From Actinomadura spongiicola (GTDB taxonomy: Bacteria; Actinomycetota; Actinomycetes; Streptosporangiales; Streptosporangiaceae), in assembly GCF_003432485.1 (NCBI RefSeq), contig NZ_QVNQ01000004.1, positions 682,001-746,000 of the forward strand: 64,000 nucleotides of DNA, in the 5' to 3' direction. This document shows positions 7,326-25,948 of this stretch, piece by piece (the stretch's first letter is position 1; every line of letters starts with the position of its first letter). The notes below the pieces were generated by a model. The model did no database searches, had not been told where the DNA came from, and saw only the letters and a list, made by a program, of their open reading frames with translations. The position numbers were made by a program, and so were the translations under genes.

Positions 7326-8516
7326 TCAGGGTGCGGGAGGAAACCGCACGGGGAGGGTCGCCAGTGCGCGGTGGAACGCGCCGGGCCGCCATTCCAGTTC
7401 GTCGACGGGGACGGCGAGTTCCATGTCGGGGAGCCGGTCGAGGAGCTTCTCGATGGCCACCGACGCGATCAACCGGGCGTGGTTCTTGGCGGGACAGGTG
7501 TGCGGCCCGCCCGCGAACGCGAGATGCGCCCGGTTGCCCGTCCGGTTCTCCGTCGACCGGGACGGGTCGGTGTTCGCGGCCGTGTAGCTGATGATGACGG
7601 GCTGGTGGGCGGGGAGCCGGTACCCGTGGAAGTTCACGTCCTGGCGGGGGAACGTCGGCCCGTAGTTGGAGATCGGCGGGTCGGTCCAGAGGATCTCGTC
7701 CAGCGCGTCCTCGACGGGCAGGCTGCCGCCGGACAGGTCGCCGAAGAACCGGTCGTCCGACAGCAGCAGCCGGACGCCGTTGGCGATGAGGGAGTTCGCC
7801 GGCTCGGTGCCGGAGGCGAGCAGCAGCCCGACCTGGTTCATCACCTCCTCCTCGTCGAGCCCGGCGGGATGCCGCAGCATCCAGGACGGCACGTCCGCGC
7901 CCGCCTTCTCGCGCTTCGACGCCACCAGCTCCGTGGCCGCCTCGATGAGCATGGCGAGCGACGCCCCGGGATCGACGCCCTCGATCATGCCGGTCATGCC
8001 GCGTTCGAGCCGGTCGGCGATGTCCCGGGGGCAGCCGAACAGCTCACCGAACACCAGGAGCGGCAGCGGCCGGGTGTACTGGGCGATGAGGTCGGCCTCG
8101 CCGTCGCCCGCGAACGCGTCGAGGAGCCCGTCCGCGGCCTCCTCCACGTACTGGCGCAGCGCCGCCGGGTGGACGCGGGCCAGGCTGTCCACGATCGCCG
8201 ACCGGAACCTGGCGTGGACGGGCCCGTTGGTGAACAGCGCGTTCGGCCGGGCCGCCAGCATCGGCAGGACGGGGCAGTCGGGGCCGACCTCCGCCTCCCA
8301 GACCTCGCTGCACCGCGGGAACCGGTCCGGGTCGCGCAGGATCTCCAGGGCGGCGTCGTATCCGAGGACCAGCGTCGCCGGGACGCCCGGCGCCAGTTCG
8401 ACGGGCGCGAGGTCGCCGTGGGCGCGCAGCCGCTCGTAGACCCGTTCGGGGGTGTCGGTGAACTCCGGTCCGTACAGCGGGGTCCGGGTCTGCTCCTGCT
8501 CGGTCGGGACGGTCAC
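7326..8516 (-). CDS. cvnE: Conservon cytochrome P450 (CvnE, CYP157-like)
   Basis: 396-residue P450, last gene of a five-gene conservon; its GTG overlaps the CvnD stop (GTGA). The heme-thiolate loop is FAGGPHTCPAK with Cys near 341, and the I-helix reads LLLASGTEPANS. The K-helix normally has ExxR, but here it is E-I-L-W (about 274-277), so the invariant Arg is Trp. Loss of ExxR is documented for the CYP157 family of Streptomyces conservons, so this is a family trait rather than a defect. The substrate is unknown. Confidence 0.88.
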   Translation of the reverse strand: MTVPTEQEQTRTPLYGPEFTDTPERVYERLRAHGDLAPVELAPGVPATLVLGYDAALEILRDPDRFPRCSEVWEAEVGPDCPVLPMLAARPNALFTNGPVHARFRSAIVDSLARVHPAALRQYVEEAADGLLDAFAGDGEADLIAQYTRPLPLLVFGELFGCPRDIADRLERGMTGMIEGVDPGASLAMLIEAATELVASKREKAGADVPSWMLRHPAGLDEEEVMNQVGLLLASGTEPANSLIANGVRLLLSDDRFFGDLSGGSLPVEDALDEILWTDPPISNYGPTFPRQDVNFHGYRLPAHQPVIISYTAANTDPSRSTENRTGNRAHLAFAGGPHTCPAKNHARLIASVAIEKLLDRLPDMELAVPVDELEWRPGAFHRALATLPVRFPPAP

Positions 8517-14467: not shown

Positions 14468-15034
14468 TCAGGCTCCTACCTGGTACAGGGCCTGTCCCCA
14501 GCGGAACTGGCCGTTGCTGCGGTAGCTGCTGTGGCTCATCTCCGCGTACCTGGGGCTGGAGGGCCACGGGTCGCCGTAGGAGAGCGTCTGGCCGTTGTAC
14601 CCGTAGATCACCTGGGCGTGGCCGCCGCCGGCCGTCCAGTAGATGCCGGTCTCGATCGGGCGCCTGCCGTCGATCTCGGTGACGACCTGCTGGTACGACA
14701 GCGGTCCGCTGACCGTGCCGGCGGACAGGCCGAGCTTGCGGAACGCCACCTGGTCCCATTCGAGGTACCCGGGCTGGTTCGGACACTGGCCGCTTGACCG
14801 GTTCCTCGCCATGTTGCAGAACTCGTTCTGGCTGACGTTGCCCTTACCGTGGAACTTGGCGATCGTCAGCCCGCTGGCGGCCCAGCACCATTGGTTCTGT
14901 TCCTGGACGAGCTGTTGGATCTGGAGTACACCTGCCGAGGCGACCCCGGTCGACGCGAAGGTGGTGATGGCCACCCCCGCGAGTCCGACCGCGAGCCGCC
15001 GGCGTGCCCGGGCGGGTCGGGTACGCGTTGTCAT
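14468..15034 (-). CDS. Secreted papain-like cysteine protease
   Basis: 188 residues. A twin-arginine-like basic start (TRPARARRRLAVG) and a hydrophobic core give a signal peptide cleaved near ASA (34). The mature part has the papain-like triad: Cys50 in NQWCWAAS, His139 in GGGHAQVIYGYN and Asp155 in YGDPW, with Gln before the Cys as oxyanion residue. The pattern is like the AvrRpt2/C70 and C39-like extracellular peptidases. Unlike papains it lacks a long propeptide. It is the first gene of a two-gene unit with the membrane-anchored partner downstream. Confidence 0.82.
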   Translation of the reverse strand: MTTRTRPARARRRLAVGLAGVAITTFASTGVASAGVLQIQQLVQEQNQWCWAASGLTIAKFHGKGNVSQNEFCNMARNRSSGQCPNQPGYLEWDQVAFRKLGLSAGTVSGPLSYQQVVTEIDGRRPIETGIYWTAGGGHAQVIYGYNGQTLSYGDPWPSSPRYAEMSHSSYRSNGQFRWGQALYQVGA

Positions 15035-15294
15035 TGGCTTCCGCCTTTTCTCCCGGCGTGTCGTTCGGCCTCTCGCGCGGGTGGTGCGCGTGCGTGTCCG
15101 GGGGCTGAGGCGGTACCTGGCCGCCGGAGACGGGGAGCCGCCCACCGGGCGTTCCCTCCCGGTGCCGGGGAGTTCCGGGGTGGGATCCCCGCGCGAGAGG
15201 CAGAGGGAACGCGATTAAAGTCTCATCCGCCGCCGAATCCGGGTAATGCCAACAGGTCATAACGAGAACCTATGGCCCGGCGACGCAGGAACTT

Positions 15295-17322: not shown

Positions 17323-17853
17323 ATGCGACTTCGAATTCTCGCGGTGCTGCCCATCGCGCTGACCTTGGCGTTGACGGCCGGGTGCGGCGGTGACGACGGC
17401 GGTGAGGGCGTGGCGTCGGTGGAAGGCACGAAGAGCACCGGCACGAAGGGCGGCGGCGCGGCCGGTGGCGGCGCGAAGCTGAGCCGGGACGAGATGGGGG
17501 TGAAGTTCGCGCAGTGCATGCGCGAGAACGGCGTGCACATGGACGACCCGAAGCCCGGCGAACCCCTCCGGTTCATGATCAAGGACGTGCCGAAGGCGAC
17601 CGTGGACAAGGCCATGGAGGCGTGCCGCCAGTACAACCCGCAGGCCAACGCCACCGGCGCGCCCGACCCGGCGCAGCAGGAGCGGGGCCGCAAGTTCGCC
17701 GAGTGCATGCGCCGCAACGGCGTCGAGAAGTTCCCCGACCCGAAGCCCGGCCAGCGCGGCATCATGATCGACAAGAACACGGTCGGGGACGACCCTGACC
17801 TGGAGTCGGCGCAGCGCGCGTGCCAGGACGTCCTCCAGGGCGGGCGGAAGTGA
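17323..17853 (+). CDS. Lipoprotein with duplicated cysteine motif
   Basis: 176 residues. Signal peptide with lipobox LTAGC near residue 21, so a membrane-anchored lipoprotein, followed by a Gly-rich linker. The mature part is an internal duplication: KFAQCMRENGV...DPKPG and KFAECMRRNGV...DPKPG, each followed by a second Cys (MEACRQY, AQRACQD), suggesting one disulfide per repeat. It is the first gene of the MacB-type operon and overlaps the adaptor gene (GTGA). It may be a sensory or substrate-trapping subunit; the function is not known. Confidence 0.78.
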   Translation: MRLRILAVLPIALTLALTAGCGGDDGGEGVASVEGTKSTGTKGGGAAGGGAKLSRDEMGVKFAQCMRENGVHMDDPKPGEPLRFMIKDVPKATVDKAMEACRQYNPQANATGAPDPAQQERGRKFAECMRRNGVEKFPDPKPGQRGIMIDKNTVGDDPDLESAQRACQDVLQGGRK

Positions 17854-18938
17854 CGGGCCGCCCCACCCGGCGGCGCGTCACCCGTTCCAGGGTCGCGCTC
17901 TGCGTCGCCGTGCTGGTCGCGGCCGGGGGAGTCACGTCCGTGGCGGCCTTCGCGGGCGGTGGCGACTCCGGCGGCGGGACGGCCACCGGCCTGCCGCCCG
18001 GCACCACGAAGGTCACGGCCCAGACCCTCAGGGACACCCGGACCGAGGACGGGCGGCTCGGCTACGGCCCGGCGCACACCGTGACGAGCCAGACGAAGGG
18101 CACCCTGACCAAGCTCCCCGACAGCGGAGACGAGATCACCCGGGGGCGCGAGCTGTACGAGGTGGACGGGGATCCGGTGGTGCTGATGTACGGGTCCAAG
18201 CCGGCGTACCGGCCGCTGCGGGTCGGCACGGAGGGCTCCGACGTGAAGCGGTTCGAGGCGAACCTCGCGGCGCTCGGCTACGACGGCTTCACCGTGGACG
18301 ACGAGTACACCGGGAGCACCGCCGAGGCCGTCCAGCGATGGCAGGACGACATCGGCGTCGAGGAGACCGGGGTCGTGGAGCCCGGACGGGTCGCGTTCGC
18401 GTCCGGGCCGGTCCGGGTGGAGACCGTCCAGGCCAGTCCGGGCGAGCCGACGGCGCCCGGCAGGAAGGTCCTCGACCACACCGGCACCGCGAAGGCCGTC
18501 ACCGTCGAACTGGACACCGCCGACCAGCGGCTGGCGAAGAAGGGCGCCGCGGTCGAGGTGACGCTCCCCGAGAACGAGACCGTGACCGCCGAGATCGACG
18601 AGGTCACCACGGTGATCGAGCCGGGCCAGCAGGGCGAGGACCCGGCGACGAAGGTCGAGGTCACCATCTGGCTCGACTCGGGTAAGGCGAAGAAGGCCGC
18701 CGCCAAGTACGCGCTCGCCTCCGTCGACGTGACGTTCACCGCCGGAACACGCGAGAACGTGCTGACCGTGCCGGTGTCCGCGCTCGTGGCGCTGCGGGAG
18801 GGCGGCTTCGGCGTCGAGGTCGTGCGCGGCGCCACGTCGTCCTACGTTCCGGTCGACACGGGCCTGTTCGCGGACGGGAAGGTCGAGATCTCCGGGCAGG
18901 GCGTCGCGGCGGGCACCGTCGTGGGGGTCCCGAAATGA
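17850..18938 (+). CDS. Peptidoglycan-binding/efflux adaptor (MacA-like)
   Basis: 362 residues from a GTG overlapping the lipoprotein stop. One N-terminal membrane helix (about 12-34), a biotinyl-lipoyl/HlyD-like segment, an inserted PG_binding_1 domain ([32 protein letters not shown]), then a beta-barrel region and C-terminal domain ([19 protein letters not shown]). This is the usual actinobacterial adaptor that partners MacB-type ATPase/permease pairs for export across the membrane. The stop overlaps the ATPase start (ATGA). Confidence 0.85.
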
Positions 18939-19633
18939 TCACACTGCGGGAGGTGACGAAGGAGTACTCCGGTGGCGTCCACGCGCTCGCCGGGGTGTCC
19001 CTGCACATCGGCGCGGGCGAACAGGTGGCGATCGTCGGGCCGTCCGGCTCGGGCAAGTCGACGATGTTGAACATCCTCGGCACGCTGGACCGGCCGACCT
19101 CGGGCACCGTCCACATCGACGGGCACGACGTGGGACGGCTGGCGGACGCCGAGCTGTCGGCACTGCGGGCGAGCCGCATCGGCTTCGTGTTCCAGCATTT
19201 CCATCTGGCGGCCGGCACACCGGCGCTCGACAACGTCGCGGACGGGCTCCTCTACTCGGGGCTCCGCCCGGCGGTGCGGCGACGCAGGGCCGTCGAGGCG
19301 CTGGAACGGGTCGGTCTCGGCCACCGGCTGCGTCACGAGCCGCACGAGCTGTCCGGCGGCGAGCGGCAGCGCGTCGCGATCGCGCGGGCGGTCGCGGGCG
19401 AACCGCCGCTGCTGCTCGCGGACGAGCCGACCGGCGCGCTCGACTCGGCGTCCGGGGACGGGGTGATGGAGCTGCTGCGCGACCTGCACGCCGCCGGCAC
19501 CACCGTGGTGATCATCACGCATGACCGGGAGATCGCGGCGGGACTGGCCCGGCAGGTCAGGATGCGCGATGGCCGCGTTGTCGAGGACACCGCGGACAGC
19601 GCGGACACGGCGCTCACCGGGGCGACGCCGTGA
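18935..19633 (+). CDS. ABC transporter ATP-binding protein (MacB/LolD type)
   Basis: 232 residues. Walker [11 protein letters not shown]-loop FVFQHFHL, signature LSGGERQR and Walker [13 protein letters not shown] are all intact, with the H-switch ITHD. The family energises export or lipoprotein extraction with an FtsX-type permease. It overlaps the adaptor upstream (ATGA) and the permease downstream (GTGA). Confidence 0.93.
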
Positions 19634-20835
19634 CCGCCGGGGCGCTGCGACCGGCGCGGATGTGGCCCGGCGACGTCGTCCGGGTCGGCGCGGTGGGGCT
19701 GCGGACCCGTCCGATGCGCGCGTTCCTGTCGGCGCTCGGCATCGCCATCGGGATCGCGGCGATGGTCGCCGTCGTCGGTGTCTCGTCGTCGTCGCGCGCC
19801 GACCTCGACCGGGCCCTCGCCGCCCTCGGCACGAACGTGCTGACCGTGTCGCCCGGCAACACCCTGACCGGCGAGGAGGCGCAGCTCCCCGTCGAGTCGG
19901 AGGCGATGGTCGCGCGGATCGCGCCGGTGCGGGAGGTGTCGGCCATCGCCCTGCTGGACGACGCGAAGGTCTACCGGAACAGCAAGATGCCCGAGACGGA
20001 GACCAAGGGCATCGCGACGTACGCCGCCCGCACCGACCTGCGCGAGGCGACGGGGGCGCGGCTGCGCGGCGGCGCCTGGCTGAACGCCGCGACCGGCTCC
20101 TACCCGGCGACGGTGCTCGGCGCGACCGCCGCGGAGCGTCTCGGGATCGGCCGTGCGGGGCCGGACGTCCAGGTCCTCGTCGGCGGCCACCGGTTCACGG
20201 TCATCGGCATCCTCGACCGGGCGCCGCTCGCCCCCGAGCTGGACTCCGCCGCCCTGGTCGGCTGGACGGCGGCGCAGGCGCGGCTCGGCTTCGACGGACA
20301 TCCGACGACGATCTACACCCGGTCGCGGGACGCGAGCGTCGAGGACGTGCGGAGCGTCCTCGGCGCGACCGCGAACCCGGAGGCGCCGAACGAGGTGGAG
20401 GTGTCCCGGCCGTCCGACGCGCTGGCCGCGCGGAAGGCGGCGGGCGAGGCGTTCACCGGGCTGCTGCTCGGGCTCGGCGCGGTCGCGTTGCTCGTCGGCG
20501 GTGTCGGGGTGGCCAACACCATGGTGATCTCGGTATTGGAGCGGCGCTCGGAGATCGGGCTGCGCCGTTCGCTCGGCGCGACCCGGGGGCAGGTCCGCAC
20601 GCAGTTCCTGGCCGAGTCGCTGTTGCTGTCGGCGCTCGGCGGCGTCGGCGGCGCGCTCCTCGGCGCGGTGGTGACGTCCGGCTACGGCCTCTACCAGGGG
20701 TGGCCGATCGTCGTCCCGGCGTGGGCGGTGCTGGGCGGTGTCGCGGCGACCCTGGTCATCGGCGCGATGGCCGGGCTCTATCCCGCGATCCGCGCGTCGC
20801 GCCTGAGCCCCACGGAGGCGCTCGCGGCACCCTAG
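19630..20835 (+). CDS. ABC transporter permease (FtsX/MacB type)
   Basis: 401 residues from GTG. An N-terminal transmembrane helix ([17 protein letters not shown]), a large extracytoplasmic MacB periplasmic-core domain (about 60-270), and three C-terminal helices with the FtsX signature ([38 protein letters not shown]). It completes the lipoprotein-adaptor-ATPase-permease operon. The likely substrate is a peptide, antibiotic or lipid, which cannot be told from sequence. Confidence 0.9.
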
Positions 20836-21583: not shown

Positions 21584-22804
21584 ATGCTGAGAGAACTCGT
21601 GGCGGCCAGCCACCTGATGTCCATGGAACAGTTGCCGGGCACGATGGCCCGGCACGCCGCGCACGCGGGCCTCCACAACGCGGTCATCTACGTGGCGGAC
21701 CTACAGCAGACGGTGCTGCGGCTGCTGACCGGGAAGGGGCGGGACGCCGCGCGGGACCCCGGCCCGGAGATTCCCGAGCTCGTGATCGACAGGACCATCG
21801 CCGGGCGGGCGTTCCAGACCATGGAACCGGTGGTCGGGCAGGTGTTCGACGACGGGACCTGCCACTACTGGCTCCCGATCCTCGACGGAACCGAACGGAT
21901 CGGGGTGCTCAGGGTCACCATCCGCCGGGACGACGCGAAGGCCAAGGACGACGCCGAGTACCTGGCCGGGATGGTCGCGCTGCTGATCGTCAGCAAGGGG
22001 CCGTACAGCGACTCGTTCTCCCGGCTGGTGCGGACCAGGGACATGACGGTGTCGGCGGAGATGCAGTGGCGGCTGCTGCCGCCCATGACCTTCGCCAACG
22101 ACCAGGTGGTGATCGGCGCCGCGCTGGAGCCGGCGTACATGCTCGGCGGCGACACCTTCGACTACGCGCTGGCCGACGACACCGTCCACCTCGCGATCTT
22201 CGACGCGATGGGGCACGACACCACCGCCGGGCTGACGTCCAATCTCGCCGTCGCGGCCTGCCGCAACAACCGGCTCCAGGACGCGGGCCTCGTCGGGACG
22301 GGCCAGGCGATCGAGGAGACTCTCGTCGAGCAGGACCGGGACGGACGTTTCGTCACGGCCGTCCTGATGGAACTCGACCTCCAGTCGGGCCTGCTGTCGT
22401 GGATCACGCACGGCCACCCCGCGCCGGTGATCATCCGGAAGGGCCGATGGGTGAGCACGCTGGAGTGCCGTCCCGGCACGCCGCTCGGCACGGGCCTCGG
22501 CGTCGTCCCGCAGCTGTGCACCGAGCAGCTCGAACCGGGCGACCGCATCCTGCTCTACAGCGACGGCATCGTCGAGGCCCGTGACCCGCGCAAACAGGAG
22601 TTCGGCCTCCAACGGTTCGTCGACTTCATCATCCGCAGCAACGCCGCGGGGATGGCCGTGCCGGAGACGCTGCGGCGCCTCATCCGCAGCATCCTCGAAC
22701 ACCACGACGGGCGCCTCGACGACGACGCGACCGTCCTGCTCCTCGAATGGCACGGGCCGCCGTCAGTGCCCAAGGACGTCCTGGCCTCGGTGCGGCAGAC
22801 CTGA
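21584..22804 (+). CDS. GAF-SpoIIE PP2C-family phosphatase
   Basis: 406 residues. An N-terminal GAF-like sensor (about 1-150) is followed by a SpoIIE/RsbU-type PP2C phosphatase domain: AEMQWRLLPP, LGGDTFDYALADDTVHLA, IFDAMGHDTTAGLTSNLAV, LSWITHGHPAPVII and LLYSDGIVEARD, with the metal-binding Asp residues kept. Such enzymes dephosphorylate anti-sigma-factor antagonists in partner-switching systems. A SigF/RsbW pair lies 20 kb away, but a direct link is unproven. Confidence 0.87.
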   Translation: MLRELVAASHLMSMEQLPGTMARHAAHAGLHNAVIYVADLQQTVLRLLTGKGRDAARDPGPEIPELVIDRTIAGRAFQTMEPVVGQVFDDGTCHYWLPILDGTERIGVLRVTIRRDDAKAKDDAEYLAGMVALLIVSKGPYSDSFSRLVRTRDMTVSAEMQWRLLPPMTFANDQVVIGAALEPAYMLGGDTFDYALADDTVHLAIFDAMGHDTTAGLTSNLAVAACRNNRLQDAGLVGTGQAIEETLVEQDRDGRFVTAVLMELDLQSGLLSWITHGHPAPVIIRKGRWVSTLECRPGTPLGTGLGVVPQLCTEQLEPGDRILLYSDGIVEARDPRKQEFGLQRFVDFIIRSNAAGMAVPETLRRLIRSILEHHDGRLDDDATVLLLEWHGPPSVPKDVLASVRQT

Positions 22805-22862: not shown

Positions 22863-24209
22863 TCAGGCGTGCGGCATCGGCTCCGGCGCGGAGCCCCGCA
22901 CGTACCGGACGGCCCACCGCACCAGCCCGCTGCACACCCCGTAGAGGATCAGCGCCACACCGGCCAGCGGCAGCACCAGCAGGACGATCTGCAGTCCCGA
23001 GGTGACCAGATCGAGCACCCCGGCTCCTTGCGTGGCCTCGGTCGCGAGCCGCCGCATCATCCACCAGTCCTTGGCGACGAGGTGCGGGATCTGGCTGATG
23101 ATGAGTCCGAGCTGGAACAGCAGGACCGGGATCACGGTCAACACCCACACCGTGACGAAGATCTGCGGCCAGCGCTTGAGGTCGTCGAGGCGCGCGTCGG
23201 CGGGACGCCGCAGCAGCGTCCGGCGCAGGATGGGCCCGATGTACTTGAACAGGTCGGGGATGCCGATCAGGTCCGACATGATGTAGTACCCGTCGAACCG
23301 CAGCGTCGGCAGAAGCTGCTGGACCATCTCCAGGTTGACGTACAGGACGGCGACGAGCAGCGGCTCGAAGCCGGTCTGCAGGTACGCCACCGTCAACCCC
23401 ACGACGAAGATCGCGTTGAAGTAGACGCCCGCGAGGTCGGCGCGCAGCCGCCCGCCGCGGCCGAGCCGGTACGACTCGCTGATGTCGGTGTAGAACGCGG
23501 GCCACACGAGATAGATGCCGCAGCCCATGACGCCGGGCCGGACCCCGCCGTACCGGCAGGCCGCGGCGTGCCCGACCTCGTGGAACGCCACCGACGCGAT
23601 CCCGAGGCCCAGCACGAGCAGGATGCTCACCGGGTTGAGGATCAGGGCCGAGAGAGCGCTCACCACCGACCGGCTGGTGAGCACCCACACCTCGGCGGTC
23701 ACGAACGAGGCGAGCATCAGCGCCAGCACCACGGGCCGGAACAGCCAGGAGAACATCCCGCCGACGAACGAGCTGAACGACGCGGGGAAGACCGCGACCT
23801 TCCACCGCAACGCCAGGAACGGGTCGTTCTTGGTGACCGGCGGCGGTGTCCCGTCGCTGTAGGTGGTGACGCCGAGCGGGGCGAGTTTCTGGTCGGTGAG
23901 GTAGACGATCTGTTCGGCGGTCAGCCGCGCCCCGGCCTGCGCGCTGACCGTGTCGGCCACCTGGTCCAGGGCCCGCCCGATGTCGGCGTCCGCGAGGTCG
24001 CGGTGCTCGTGCAGGGCCTTGGCGACGAGGAACAGCAGCGGTGGCAGCCGGACGAGCCGGCCGGAGGGCAGCCGGACGAGTTGCGGCGGCTCCCGGTAGC
24101 CCGAGTTCTTGAACTCGCCGACGAACTCCGCGCCGTCGACGAGCGTGGGCAGCGTGAGAGCCGTGGGAGGCTCCGCGCCACCCACGGCCGGTGTCGCGGG
24201 CGTGCCCAT
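22863..24209 (-). CDS. M50-type membrane zinc protease with N-terminal PqqD/RRE-like domain
   Basis: 448 residues. The N-terminal ~130 residues look like a small winged-helix of the PqqD/RiPP-recognition kind (QLVRLPSGRLVRLPPLLFLV, then AEQIVYLTDQKLAPLGV), followed by multiple membrane helices. Metal-site motif HEVGH at 210-214 and RFDGYYIMSDLIGIPDLF with Asp306 match the 'putative peptide zinc metalloprotease' branch of M50. The ATG overlaps the stop of an upstream small-peptide gene (TGATG), and a second related peptide gene precedes that. It probably cleaves or helps export those peptides. No ABC transporter or modifying enzyme is adjacent. Confidence 0.82.
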   Translation of the reverse strand: MGTPATPAVGGAEPPTALTLPTLVDGAEFVGEFKNSGYREPPQLVRLPSGRLVRLPPLLFLVAKALHEHRDLADADIGRALDQVADTVSAQAGARLTAEQIVYLTDQKLAPLGVTTYSDGTPPPVTKNDPFLALRWKVAVFPASFSSFVGGMFSWLFRPVVLALMLASFVTAEVWVLTSRSVVSALSALILNPVSILLVLGLGIASVAFHEVGHAAACRYGGVRPGVMGCGIYLVWPAFYTDISESYRLGRGGRLRADLAGVYFNAIFVVGLTVAYLQTGFEPLLVAVLYVNLEMVQQLLPTLRFDGYYIMSDLIGIPDLFKYIGPILRRTLLRRPADARLDDLKRWPQIFVTVWVLTVIPVLLFQLGLIISQIPHLVAKDWWMMRRLATEATQGAGVLDLVTSGLQIVLLVLPLAGVALILYGVCSGLVRWAVRYVRGSAPEPMPHA

Positions 24210-24454
24210 CAGTCCTTCGTCACCACGGTGGCCGGCATGCAGGTCATCGAGGAGTAGGCGGGCTGGGCGAACAGGCCGGTGCCGAGCAGGCCCGTGGTGC
24301 CGGCCGAGTAGCTGGCCGAACAGGCGTAGGCGACCACGGTGGTGCCGTGGCCGTCGCCGCGGAGGGCGGACATCGCCAGGCGCGGTGGCAGCACCTCGGC
24401 GTCGAGCCGGTCGAGATCGGCGTAGGTGATGTTCTGAGGGTTCTTGGGGCTCAT
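24209..24454 (-). CDS. Small peptide 2, candidate RiPP-like precursor
   Basis: 81 residues. An N-terminal leader-like segment (ITYADLDRLDAEVLPPRLAM) strongly resembles that of the other small peptide, followed by a Gly/Ser/Thr-rich tail with two Cys (VVAYAC and SSMTC, 26 residues apart). Eleven of 21 leader positions are identical between the two peptides, and the tails share TVV-x3-C, GLL-xx-LF-type and final xC motifs. No signal peptide. Coupled to the M50 protease by TGATG. The product is unknown; precursor status is inference from architecture. Confidence 0.65.
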   Translation of the reverse strand: MSPKNPQNITYADLDRLDAEVLPPRLAMSALRGDGHGTTVVAYACSASYSAGTTGLLGTGLFAQPAYSSMTCMPATVVTKD

Positions 24455-24484
24455 GTGACCACTTTCTCTGTGCGGGAACAGGGA

Positions 24485-24516
24485 GGAAGGGCTGGCGGGA
24501 ATACGCCAGCCCTTCC
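24485..24516 (-). terminator. Attenuator-like hairpin between the two peptide genes
   Basis: A perfect 13-bp stem (GGAAGGGCTGGCG and complement) with a 6-nt loop lies in the 97-bp gap between the peptide-1 stop and the peptide-2 start. It would reduce transcription into peptide 2 and the M50 gene, favouring peptide 1. Confidence 0.65.
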
Positions 24517-24551
24517 CGTGCGGGCCGTGGCCCGCTACGTCAGACCTGAGG

Positions 24552-24794
24552 TCAGCCGTTGATCGCGGTGTTGGTCGTGGTGCAGATCTGCGAGTTGCCC
24601 GCAGGAGCCGTGGTGAACAGGCTGAGGAGGCCCATCTGCGGCTGGTTGTTGTTGCTGGAGCAGGAGCTGGAGACGACGGTGTCGCCGCCGCCGCCCCCGT
24701 GGCCGCCACCCGCGAGGAGGGTGGACAGCACCGCGCGCTCCGGCAGAACCTCGCCGGCCAGCTTGTCCAGTTCGCTGTAGCTGAAAGACTTCAT
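24552..24794 (-). CDS. Small peptide 1, candidate RiPP-like precursor
   Basis: 80 residues. Leader-like start MKSFSYSELDKLAGEVLPER, then AVLSTLL, a Gly-rich hinge (AGGGHGGGGG), and a tail rich in Ser, Thr and Asn with Cys in TVVSSSC and NSQIC, 25 residues apart. The leader resembles the neighbouring peptide. There is no signal peptide, so export would need the M50 protein or a distant transporter. GGGAG lies 11 nt upstream of the ATG. First gene of the unit, followed by a strong hairpin. Confidence 0.68.
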   Translation of the reverse strand: MKSFSYSELDKLAGEVLPERAVLSTLLAGGGHGGGGGDTVVSSSCSSNNNQPQMGLLSLFTTAPAGNSQICTTTNTAING

Positions 24795-24884
24795 GTGGTT
24801 CTCGTCTCCCTTGTCACGCCCGGAATCCCTCGGTGGGTACCGGATGTCTCTGCCCCCGCACCAGATCGGAGCGGGGTAGCTCTA

Positions 24885-24914
24885 CGTATATCAGATGTGA
24901 CAGACAGTGGCCAA
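24885..24914 (-). promoter_or_regulatory. Candidate promoter of the peptide/M50 operon
   Basis: On the minus strand, TTGGCC (24914-24909) and TATACG (24890-24885) are separated by 18 bp, close to housekeeping sigma consensus, about 90 bp upstream of peptide 1. The rest of 24795-24979 separates this operon from the divergent F420 gene. Confidence 0.35.
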
Positions 24915-24979: not shown

Positions 24980-25948
24980 ATGGAATTCGGATACACGCTG
25001 CTGTGCGAGCAGACACCGCCCAAGCAACTCGTCGCCGACCTCGTCGAGGCGGAGGAGGCCGGGTTCGAGTACTCGGTCATCTCCGACCACTACTTCCCGT
25101 GGCTGGAGGACCAGGGCCACTCCGCCTACGCCTGGTCGGTGCTCGGCGCGCTGGCGCAGGCCACCCACCGCATCCCGCTGATGACGTTCGTGACCTGCCC
25201 CATCATGCGGTACCACCCCGCCGTGGTGGCGCAGAAGGCCGCCACGATGGGCGTCCTGTCGGACGGACGGTTCACCCTCGGCCTCGGCTCGGGCGAGAAC
25301 CTCAACGAGCACGTCGTCGGCCGCGGCTGGCCCTCGGTGGACGTCCGCCACGAGATGTTCGAGGAGGCCGTCGAGATCATCAGGGCCCTGTTCGGCGGCG
25401 AGTACGTCAACTACCGGGGCCGCCACTTCACCGTCGACTCCGCGAAGCTGTACGACCTGCCGGACCAGCCCGTCCGGATCGGGATGGCCGCCTACGGCCC
25501 ACGCGCCGGACGGCTCGCGGCCCGGCACGCCGACCTGCTGATCTCCGACCAGCCCGTCAGGGACGTCGTGGACCTCTTCCACGGCGAGGGCGGCGCGGGC
25601 AGGCCCGTCTACGGGCAGATCCCCGTCGCGTACGGCGACGACCACGAGGAGTGCGTGCGCCGCGCGCACCGCTACTGGAAGTTCTCGGCGCCCGGCTGGA
25701 AGGTGATGGCCGAGCTGCCCGGCCCGGGGAACTTCGAGGCCGCGACGGAGACCGTCCGTCCGGAGGACGTCGCCGCGTCCGTGCCGTGCGGGAACGACGT
25801 GGACGACTATCTGCGGGCCGTCCAGCAGTGGGCGGACGCGGGATTCACCCACATCGCGTTCTGCCAATCCGGCCCCGACCACCAGAAAGACTTCCGAACC
25901 TGGGCGGAGGCCGACCTCCTTCCCGCCCTCCGCGAACGCTTCGGCTGA
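24980..25948 (+). CDS. LLM-class F420-dependent oxidoreductase
   Basis: 322 residues of the luciferase-like fold, most like F420-dependent glucose-6-phosphate dehydrogenase/TIGR03557-type proteins. Seen: MEFGYTLLCEQTPP, ISDHYFPWLEDQGHSAYAW, MTFVTCPIMRYHPAVVAQKA and LGLGSGENLNEHVVG. Uses the deazaflavin F420 for hydride transfer in the cytoplasm; the substrate is unclear. ATG at 24980 is chosen because it starts directly at the conserved strand. It is divergent from the peptide/M50 operon and may or may not be related. Confidence 0.88.
   Translation: MEFGYTLLCEQTPPKQLVADLVEAEEAGFEYSVISDHYFPWLEDQGHSAYAWSVLGALAQATHRIPLMTFVTCPIMRYHPAVVAQKAATMGVLSDGRFTLGLGSGENLNEHVVGRGWPSVDVRHEMFEEAVEIIRALFGGEYVNYRGRHFTVDSAKLYDLPDQPVRIGMAAYGPRAGRLAARHADLLISDQPVRDVVDLFHGEGGAGRPVYGQIPVAYGDDHEECVRRAHRYWKFSAPGWKVMAELPGPGNFEAATETVRPEDVAASVPCGNDVDDYLRAVQQWADAGFTHIAFCQSGPDHQKDFRTWAEADLLPALRERFG

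Follow-up and report, generated by a model that had tools for sequence, protein, structure and literature searches.

Two adjacent small open reading frames in Actinomadura spongiicola lie upstream of a gene for a membrane protease, and this locus raises the question of what so small a set of genes makes and how its products would be released. RRE (RiPP recognition element) domains are guides for peptide-modifying pathways, M50 proteases are often part of signalling cascades, and the actinobacteria are a group important for antibiotics. The window analysed here is the whole stretch of 64,000 nucleotides (contig NZ_QVNQ01000004.1 of assembly GCF_003432485.1, positions 682,001 to 746,000), and a previous sequence-only reading of it had singled out two paired peptides, hereafter A and B, coupled to an M50 protease at 22863-24794, an observation that we confirm in all its features, with small corrections to two counts. 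The cassette is probably a stand-alone route in which a leader-guided RRE-site-2 protease processes two unmodified disulfide peptides and may also export them. A search of open-licence papers found no description of such a cassette.

Gene models and probable control region

The stop of peptide B and the start of the protease overlap as TGATG, with one base common to TGA and ATG, just as first described, and an overlap of this kind is seen for 27 of the 40 type-B peptides from Actinomadura loci. Pooled dN/dS ratios from 11 close species pairs were 0.42 for A, 0.51 for B and 0.33 for the M50 gene, values that mark each of the three as a protein-coding gene constrained by purifying selection. With ratios below 1 and relatives in dozens of genomes, the two small open reading frames stand as real genes.

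Table 1. Features of the cassette and its surroundings, in window positions
Feature	Position	Strand	Remarks
Papain-like peptidase	14468-15145	-	matches Peptidase_C70 and Peptidase_C39_2
MacAB-like ABC exporter	17820-20835		2 kb beyond the protease
SpoIIE-type PP2C phosphatase	21584-22804	+	convergent with the protease; 33/40 Actinomadura loci
RRE-M50 intramembrane (site-2 type) metalloprotease, 448 aa	22863-24209	-	HEVGH 210-214, Asp306 in LRFDGYY
RRE / PqqD-like domain, putative leader-binding	23844-24158	-	protease residues 18-122; AF2 model
Peptide B precursor, 81 aa	24209-24454	-	short linker after the leader; core cysteines Cys45 and Cys72
Peptide A precursor, 80 aa	24552-24794	-	leader in residues 1-24; linker rich in Gly; core cysteines Cys45 and Cys71
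Conserved region before A	24795-24914	-	strikingly conserved in Actinomadura
5' UTR hairpin 2	24819-24844	-	nearly invariant; too invariant for a covariation test
5' UTR hairpin 1	24855-24875	-	compensatory changes, 4 pairs altered on both sides
TATACG(TAG), likely -10 of the cassette promoter	24885-24890	-	invariant
TTGGCC, likely -35	24909-24914	-	18 nt upstream of TATACG
TIGR03557 F420-dependent oxidoreductase (luciferase-like)	24980-25948	+	divergent from the cassette; 32/40 Actinomadura loci

Across Actinomadura, A is preceded by an invariant TATACGTAG, usually with TTGGCC 18 nt upstream and followed by a 5' UTR of ~85 nt that folds into two hairpins. Because a strict sigma-70 consensus scan flagged neither TATACG nor TTGGCC, their roles as -10 and -35 are ones that we infer; the terminator scan likewise found nothing. 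For hairpin 1, 32 cells were changed on both sides against 8.8 in shuffles, none of the 500 shuffles scored as high, and slid structures scored far lower. Rfam returned no relevant family for the 5' UTR. The promoter-like element and the two-hairpin UTR also stand before some orphan A copies (loci L163 and L165).

Precursor peptides and the protease

The leaders of A (FSYSELDKLAGEVLPERAVLS) and B (ITYADLDRLDAEVLPPRLAMS) are identical at 10 of 21 positions; the sequence-only reading was right that the two share a leader, and its count of 11 falls by one on recounting. Leader conservation in orthologues, which that reading made one of its tests, is directly established: the consensus is SxxELDxLxGEVLPERxVLS, with L, LP and R invariant. 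The tails of both peptides contain the reported TVV-x3-C, and the spacing of the second cysteine needs a similarly small correction, with 25 (A) or 26 (B) residues between the two. The two-cysteine core is equally firm, being a constant ~43-44 residues in which both cysteines are invariant; 130 of the 139 peptides contain exactly two cysteines, separated by 23-27 residues. The cores are rich in Ser and Thr as well as containing Cys, and the C-termini are variable. The flexible linker is Gly-rich, with Asn/Asp in Actinomadura A and with Ala/Ser in Streptomyces A. In Actinomadura A the leader is 85% and the core 47% conserved, the pattern expected of precursor peptides in general; in B and in Streptomyces the core is well conserved. 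Neither precursor has a clear transmembrane segment, and Pfam and NCBIfam gave no relevant match for any peptide type. A and B form distinct lineages that are retained jointly across Streptomyces, Amycolatopsis and Saccharopolyspora, and a tree did not pair the Actinomadura A/B lineages with particular Streptomyces A/B lineages.

The protease carries the HEVGH motif named at the outset (Table 1), and its catalytic residues H210, E211, H214 and D306 are invariant in 17 protease sequences, so that the HExxH and distal Asp of M50 site-2 proteases are both present in the membrane-embedded core. The Pfam M50 match is weak (best 0.0035). A model of the whole chain contains many long helices at a middling pLDDT of 77; Foldseek found it no significant match and no convincing site-2 protease among solved structures, and a profile search of the protease against solved structures gave nothing useful.

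The N-terminal domain (residues 18-122) had been called PqqD/RRE-like, and the model bears this out. Predicted by AF2 with a pLDDT of 91.6 and a pTM of 0.83, it has three strands and a helical bundle, the three-stranded beta and three-helix winged-helix arrangement of the PqqD-like fold. When the model was aligned with VIA-align to 415 chains, the top three were the lasso RRE-leader complexes 6jx3, 5v1v and 5v1u (Z 8.2, 8.0 and 7.9), with the RREs of MibB, PqqD (5sxy, Z 6.7), CteB and ThcOx lower in the ranking. A Z of about 8 would be moderate taken alone, but it is difficult to see why one RRE after another should head a ranking of 415 chains if the modelled fold is not that of an RRE. Foldseek with the same model gave no significant PDB match, and Pfam and NCBIfam gave no PqqD/RRE match for the protease.

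Co-inheritance and neighbourhood

A protease scan of 84,980 species genomes yielded 79 loci, 70 of which have a close actinobacterial relative. Cassettes occur in Actinomadura, Streptomyces, Amycolatopsis, Saccharopolyspora and Actinomycetospora, and the named Streptomyces species that bear them are mostly of the verticillate group. Leader-bearing peptides lie upstream of nearly all protease loci; the exceptions include two loci interrupted by contig ends (L058 and L074), Saccharopolyspora flava, in which A is divergent and B lies downstream of the protease, and L055, in which a masked or N-filled stretch (~7550-7850) breaks the second peptide, A, in the public assembly.

The proposed check by profile search for a conserved three-gene cassette came out positive, and the linkage and co-occurrence of the three genes are directly established. 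In Actinomadura, 50 of 65 genomes have the peptides and the identical 50 have the protease (1 in 10^14.3 arrangements, a ratio that ignores shared ancestry); in Streptomyces, peptides and protease are found in the same 10 of 296 genomes (1 in 10^18.1 arrangements, again ignoring shared ancestry). The order is A-B-M50 in Actinomadura and B-A-M50 in Streptomyces, and the trio stays together despite these changes and the divergent A and downstream B of Saccharopolyspora. Some Actinomadura genomes with one protease have extra A-type copies away from it, suggesting substrates that are served in trans; given these copies, A may also act without B. One Streptomyces (G481) has a cassette near both ends of a single 8.5-Mb contig (G481:C1:135596 and 8395741), presumably within terminal inverted repeats, and a third protease copy besides.

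In a comparison of 40 Actinomadura loci with 30 loci of other genera, conservation was limited to the two peptides and the protease. Beside the trio there is no conserved modifying enzyme in any genus, and no exporter, immunity gene or receptor accompanies the cassette across genera. The sequence-only reading was thus correct that a modifying enzyme is not adjacent, and it overlooked an ABC transporter, the MacAB-like exporter 2 kb away (Table 1). The permease of this exporter accompanies the cassette at only 11 of 40 Actinomadura loci and at none from other genera, so we do not count the exporter as part of it. The F420 oxidoreductase and the SpoIIE-type phosphatase were likewise rejected as cassette parts, all three being rarely or not conserved beyond Actinomadura. 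The oxidoreductase adjoins the cassette in Actinomadura only and is probably a stable neighbour, nothing more.

The frequent place of M50 proteases in signalling cascades and the nearby phosphatase speak for a regulatory reading, in which the protease would act in a cascade like those of SpoIVFB or RseP, with the small proteins as its inhibitors or anti-factors rather than secreted products. The phosphatase adjoins most Actinomadura loci, but outside that genus lies near the cassette in just 3 of 30, and the RRE domain, the leader grammar and the tandem and orphan substrate copies fit precursor processing instead; we consider this reading very improbable. A true RiPP pair, with A and B modified by an enzyme from a distant locus of the same genome (for example to carry thioethers or epimerised residues) and the local protease only stripping the leader, would suit the composition of the cores, and RRE-protease fusions with short leader open reading frames are known from RiPP clusters (daptides). 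It is nonetheless unlikely, since the trio has no conserved enzyme partner and the luciferase-like neighbour is an ordinary TIGR03557 protein.

Because only the peptides and the protease are conserved, RRE-guided cleavage of two unmodified peptides is the simplest mechanism. The cytoplasmic RRE domain would bind the ELDxL..E(V/L)LPxR leader of A and B, and the site-2 type M50 core would cut the precursor near or just after LPxR. The C-terminal part would then be freed, probably outwards, and might be exported by the protease itself, although an exporter from another locus may take part. The predicted products are two distinct, otherwise unmodified peptides, each with a ~43-residue core and a single disulfide, made as a pair coupled to the protease and perhaps acting jointly.

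Known systems and the wider family

Several known systems resemble the cassette in part. Two-peptide class II bacteriocins have two short precursors with leaders, and their products are unmodified or disulfide-bonded; however, their leaders are of the double-Gly type and they come with a C39 ABC exporter and an immunity gene, neither of which is conserved with the cassette. Lasso RRE proteins (B1/E, e.g. 6jx3 and 5v1v) share the modelled fold of the N-terminal domain, but their partners are a leader peptidase and a cyclase rather than a membrane protease.

The closest likeness is to daptides, whose peptidase MpaP is described as an RRE-dependent intramembrane enzyme, with the RRE fused to a site-2 protease, for leader removal (Ren et al., PMC10036551). 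Like the cassette, daptide clusters combine an N-terminal RRE and site-2 protease with at least two short open reading frames that have an acidic EL.. leader ending in a Pro element, and the NCBIfam daptide leader protease model (NF041824) matches 17 of 17 members of the present family (best 5e-29) below its cut-off, the window protease scoring 83 bits against a far higher 300. In contrast, the daptide leader motif ELExMEAP is absent, its place taken by the LPxR of ELDxL.GEVLPxR; the enzymes MpaB, MpaC, MpaD and MpaM are absent among the conserved neighbours and the scanned immediate neighbours in the window; daptide clusters have an ABC transporter, whereas the cassette has no conserved one; and daptide cores end in an invariant Thr, whereas those of the cassette have two cysteines and variable C-termini. 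The M50 proteases EpeP/YydH/LiaK (NF058609; best 3e-14, 48 bits for the window protease, below cut-off) are weakly similar, in the membrane core only, not the RRE. Cleavage as well as export of the peptide has been attributed to EpeP (PMC10885120), but this type of cluster has a radical-SAM epimerase, which is missing from the conserved neighbours of the cassette, and the cassette has two precursors. The cassette protease would thus work in the manner of daptide and epipeptide leader proteases, and the cassette is neither type of cluster.

Kin competition is the setting in which the epipeptide, believed to be freed by such a related enzyme, acts (PMC7614699), and the products of A and B could similarly be a two-peptide antagonistic or signalling agent, a bacteriocin or a pheromone. 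Two distinct co-inherited lineages, a core more variable than the leader in Actinomadura A and a patchy distribution would all agree with this, but no immunity gene, receptor or exporter is conserved, orphan A copies occur without B, and core conservation is high in B and among the Streptomyces peptides. We hold this to be possible, though on balance doubtful.

The cassette is probably one visible part of a larger, apparently undescribed family. Protease relatives at E <1e-70 were present in 22 genomes beyond the window's own among 296 genomes across Actinomycetota, and leader-only peptide relatives turned up independently. At 25 relative loci that we inspected, other leader-bearing neighbours with unrelated cores lie beside the protease: three tandem ~70-aa peptides with an Ala/Asn/Gln tail (NANVAAPVNAAVAANVLSD.SVAYANAEQ), 220-300-aa proteins in which this pattern is repeated, beside longer proteases, peptides whose core contains VPVGIAANVCG..C, others with a short hydrophobic core (ISVLGIPLLGL) and, in Streptomyces, ELLPGREALG..F peptides. 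A strict script passed 19 of the 25 loci, and four more by eye made 23. Among 221 open reading frames beside the protease, 27 carry an LPx[RK] leader, and among 283 at a greater distance 2 do (Fisher p = 1e-8, an illustrative figure, as the motif was refined after some loci had been viewed). When a profile built from the tandem peptides and those with Cys was compared with the cassette peptides, the two could be aligned from the leader on (95.7% probability, E 8.7e-9), and neither Pfam nor NCBIfam has a model for the wider-family peptides.

The initial description of a minimal leader-peptide maturation cassette therefore keeps its elements, namely the two-peptide cassette, the leader, the RRE-M50 fusion and the lack of an enzyme, and was too narrow in scope, related proteases serving several unrelated cores across Actinomycetota. 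None of the outcomes that it had named as refuting it was observed. RRE-M50 proteases might be a general, hitherto undescribed leader-guided route of secretion and maturation in Actinomycetota, using one leader grammar for many unrelated, unmodified cargoes, with two-Cys peptide pairs at one extreme and Ala/Asn-repeat proteins of ~300 aa at the other, and without a Sec signal or an ABC transporter, a proposal to which we give somewhat less than an even chance; ELxx..E.LPx[RK]..[ML][SA] is offered with the same reserve as its grammar. Here the RRE is joined to a membrane protease that has no partner for modification, and the leader grammar recurs with very different cargoes; if the proposal is true, RREs also direct peptides to a membrane release machine, and an LPx[RK] leader beside an RRE-M50 gene would be a simple rule for finding many unannotated small secreted proteins in actinobacteria.

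The wider family also bears on whether the products are structural surface peptides, a hydrophobin- or amyloid-like coat of aerial hyphae or spores that the RRE-protease would export by a non-Sec route. The repeat proteins served by related proteases look coat-like, the hosts are filamentous actinobacteria, and the cassette peptides combine low-complexity linkers with a conserved hydrophobic two-Cys core and, for A, multiple copies; on the other side, 15 of 65 Actinomadura genomes manage without the system, and PF03777 gives no chaplin match. Such a coat is conceivable, and we give it the same weight as antagonism or signalling. Chaplins are look-alikes, being short two-Cys peptides of filamentous actinobacteria with a leader of another kind, and chaplin identity was rejected because a PF03777 search of this genome picks out true chaplins at other loci but passes over the present open reading frames.

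At seven loci (L131, L132, L133, L135, L136, L141 and L143), a longer RRE-M50 stands beside leader-bearing 220-300-aa proteins with repeated NANVAAPIDAAVAANVLS units. The L131 protease has a C-terminal region of SCxxC..AxAxQ repeats. At L127, L130 and L137 this region is a separate open reading frame that probably starts with a signal peptide, and a lipoprotein-like gene comes next. Divergent RRE-M50 proteins occur in about a tenth of sampled Streptomyces, and at L178 and L138 they are found beside ELLPGREALGxxxFSF peptides.
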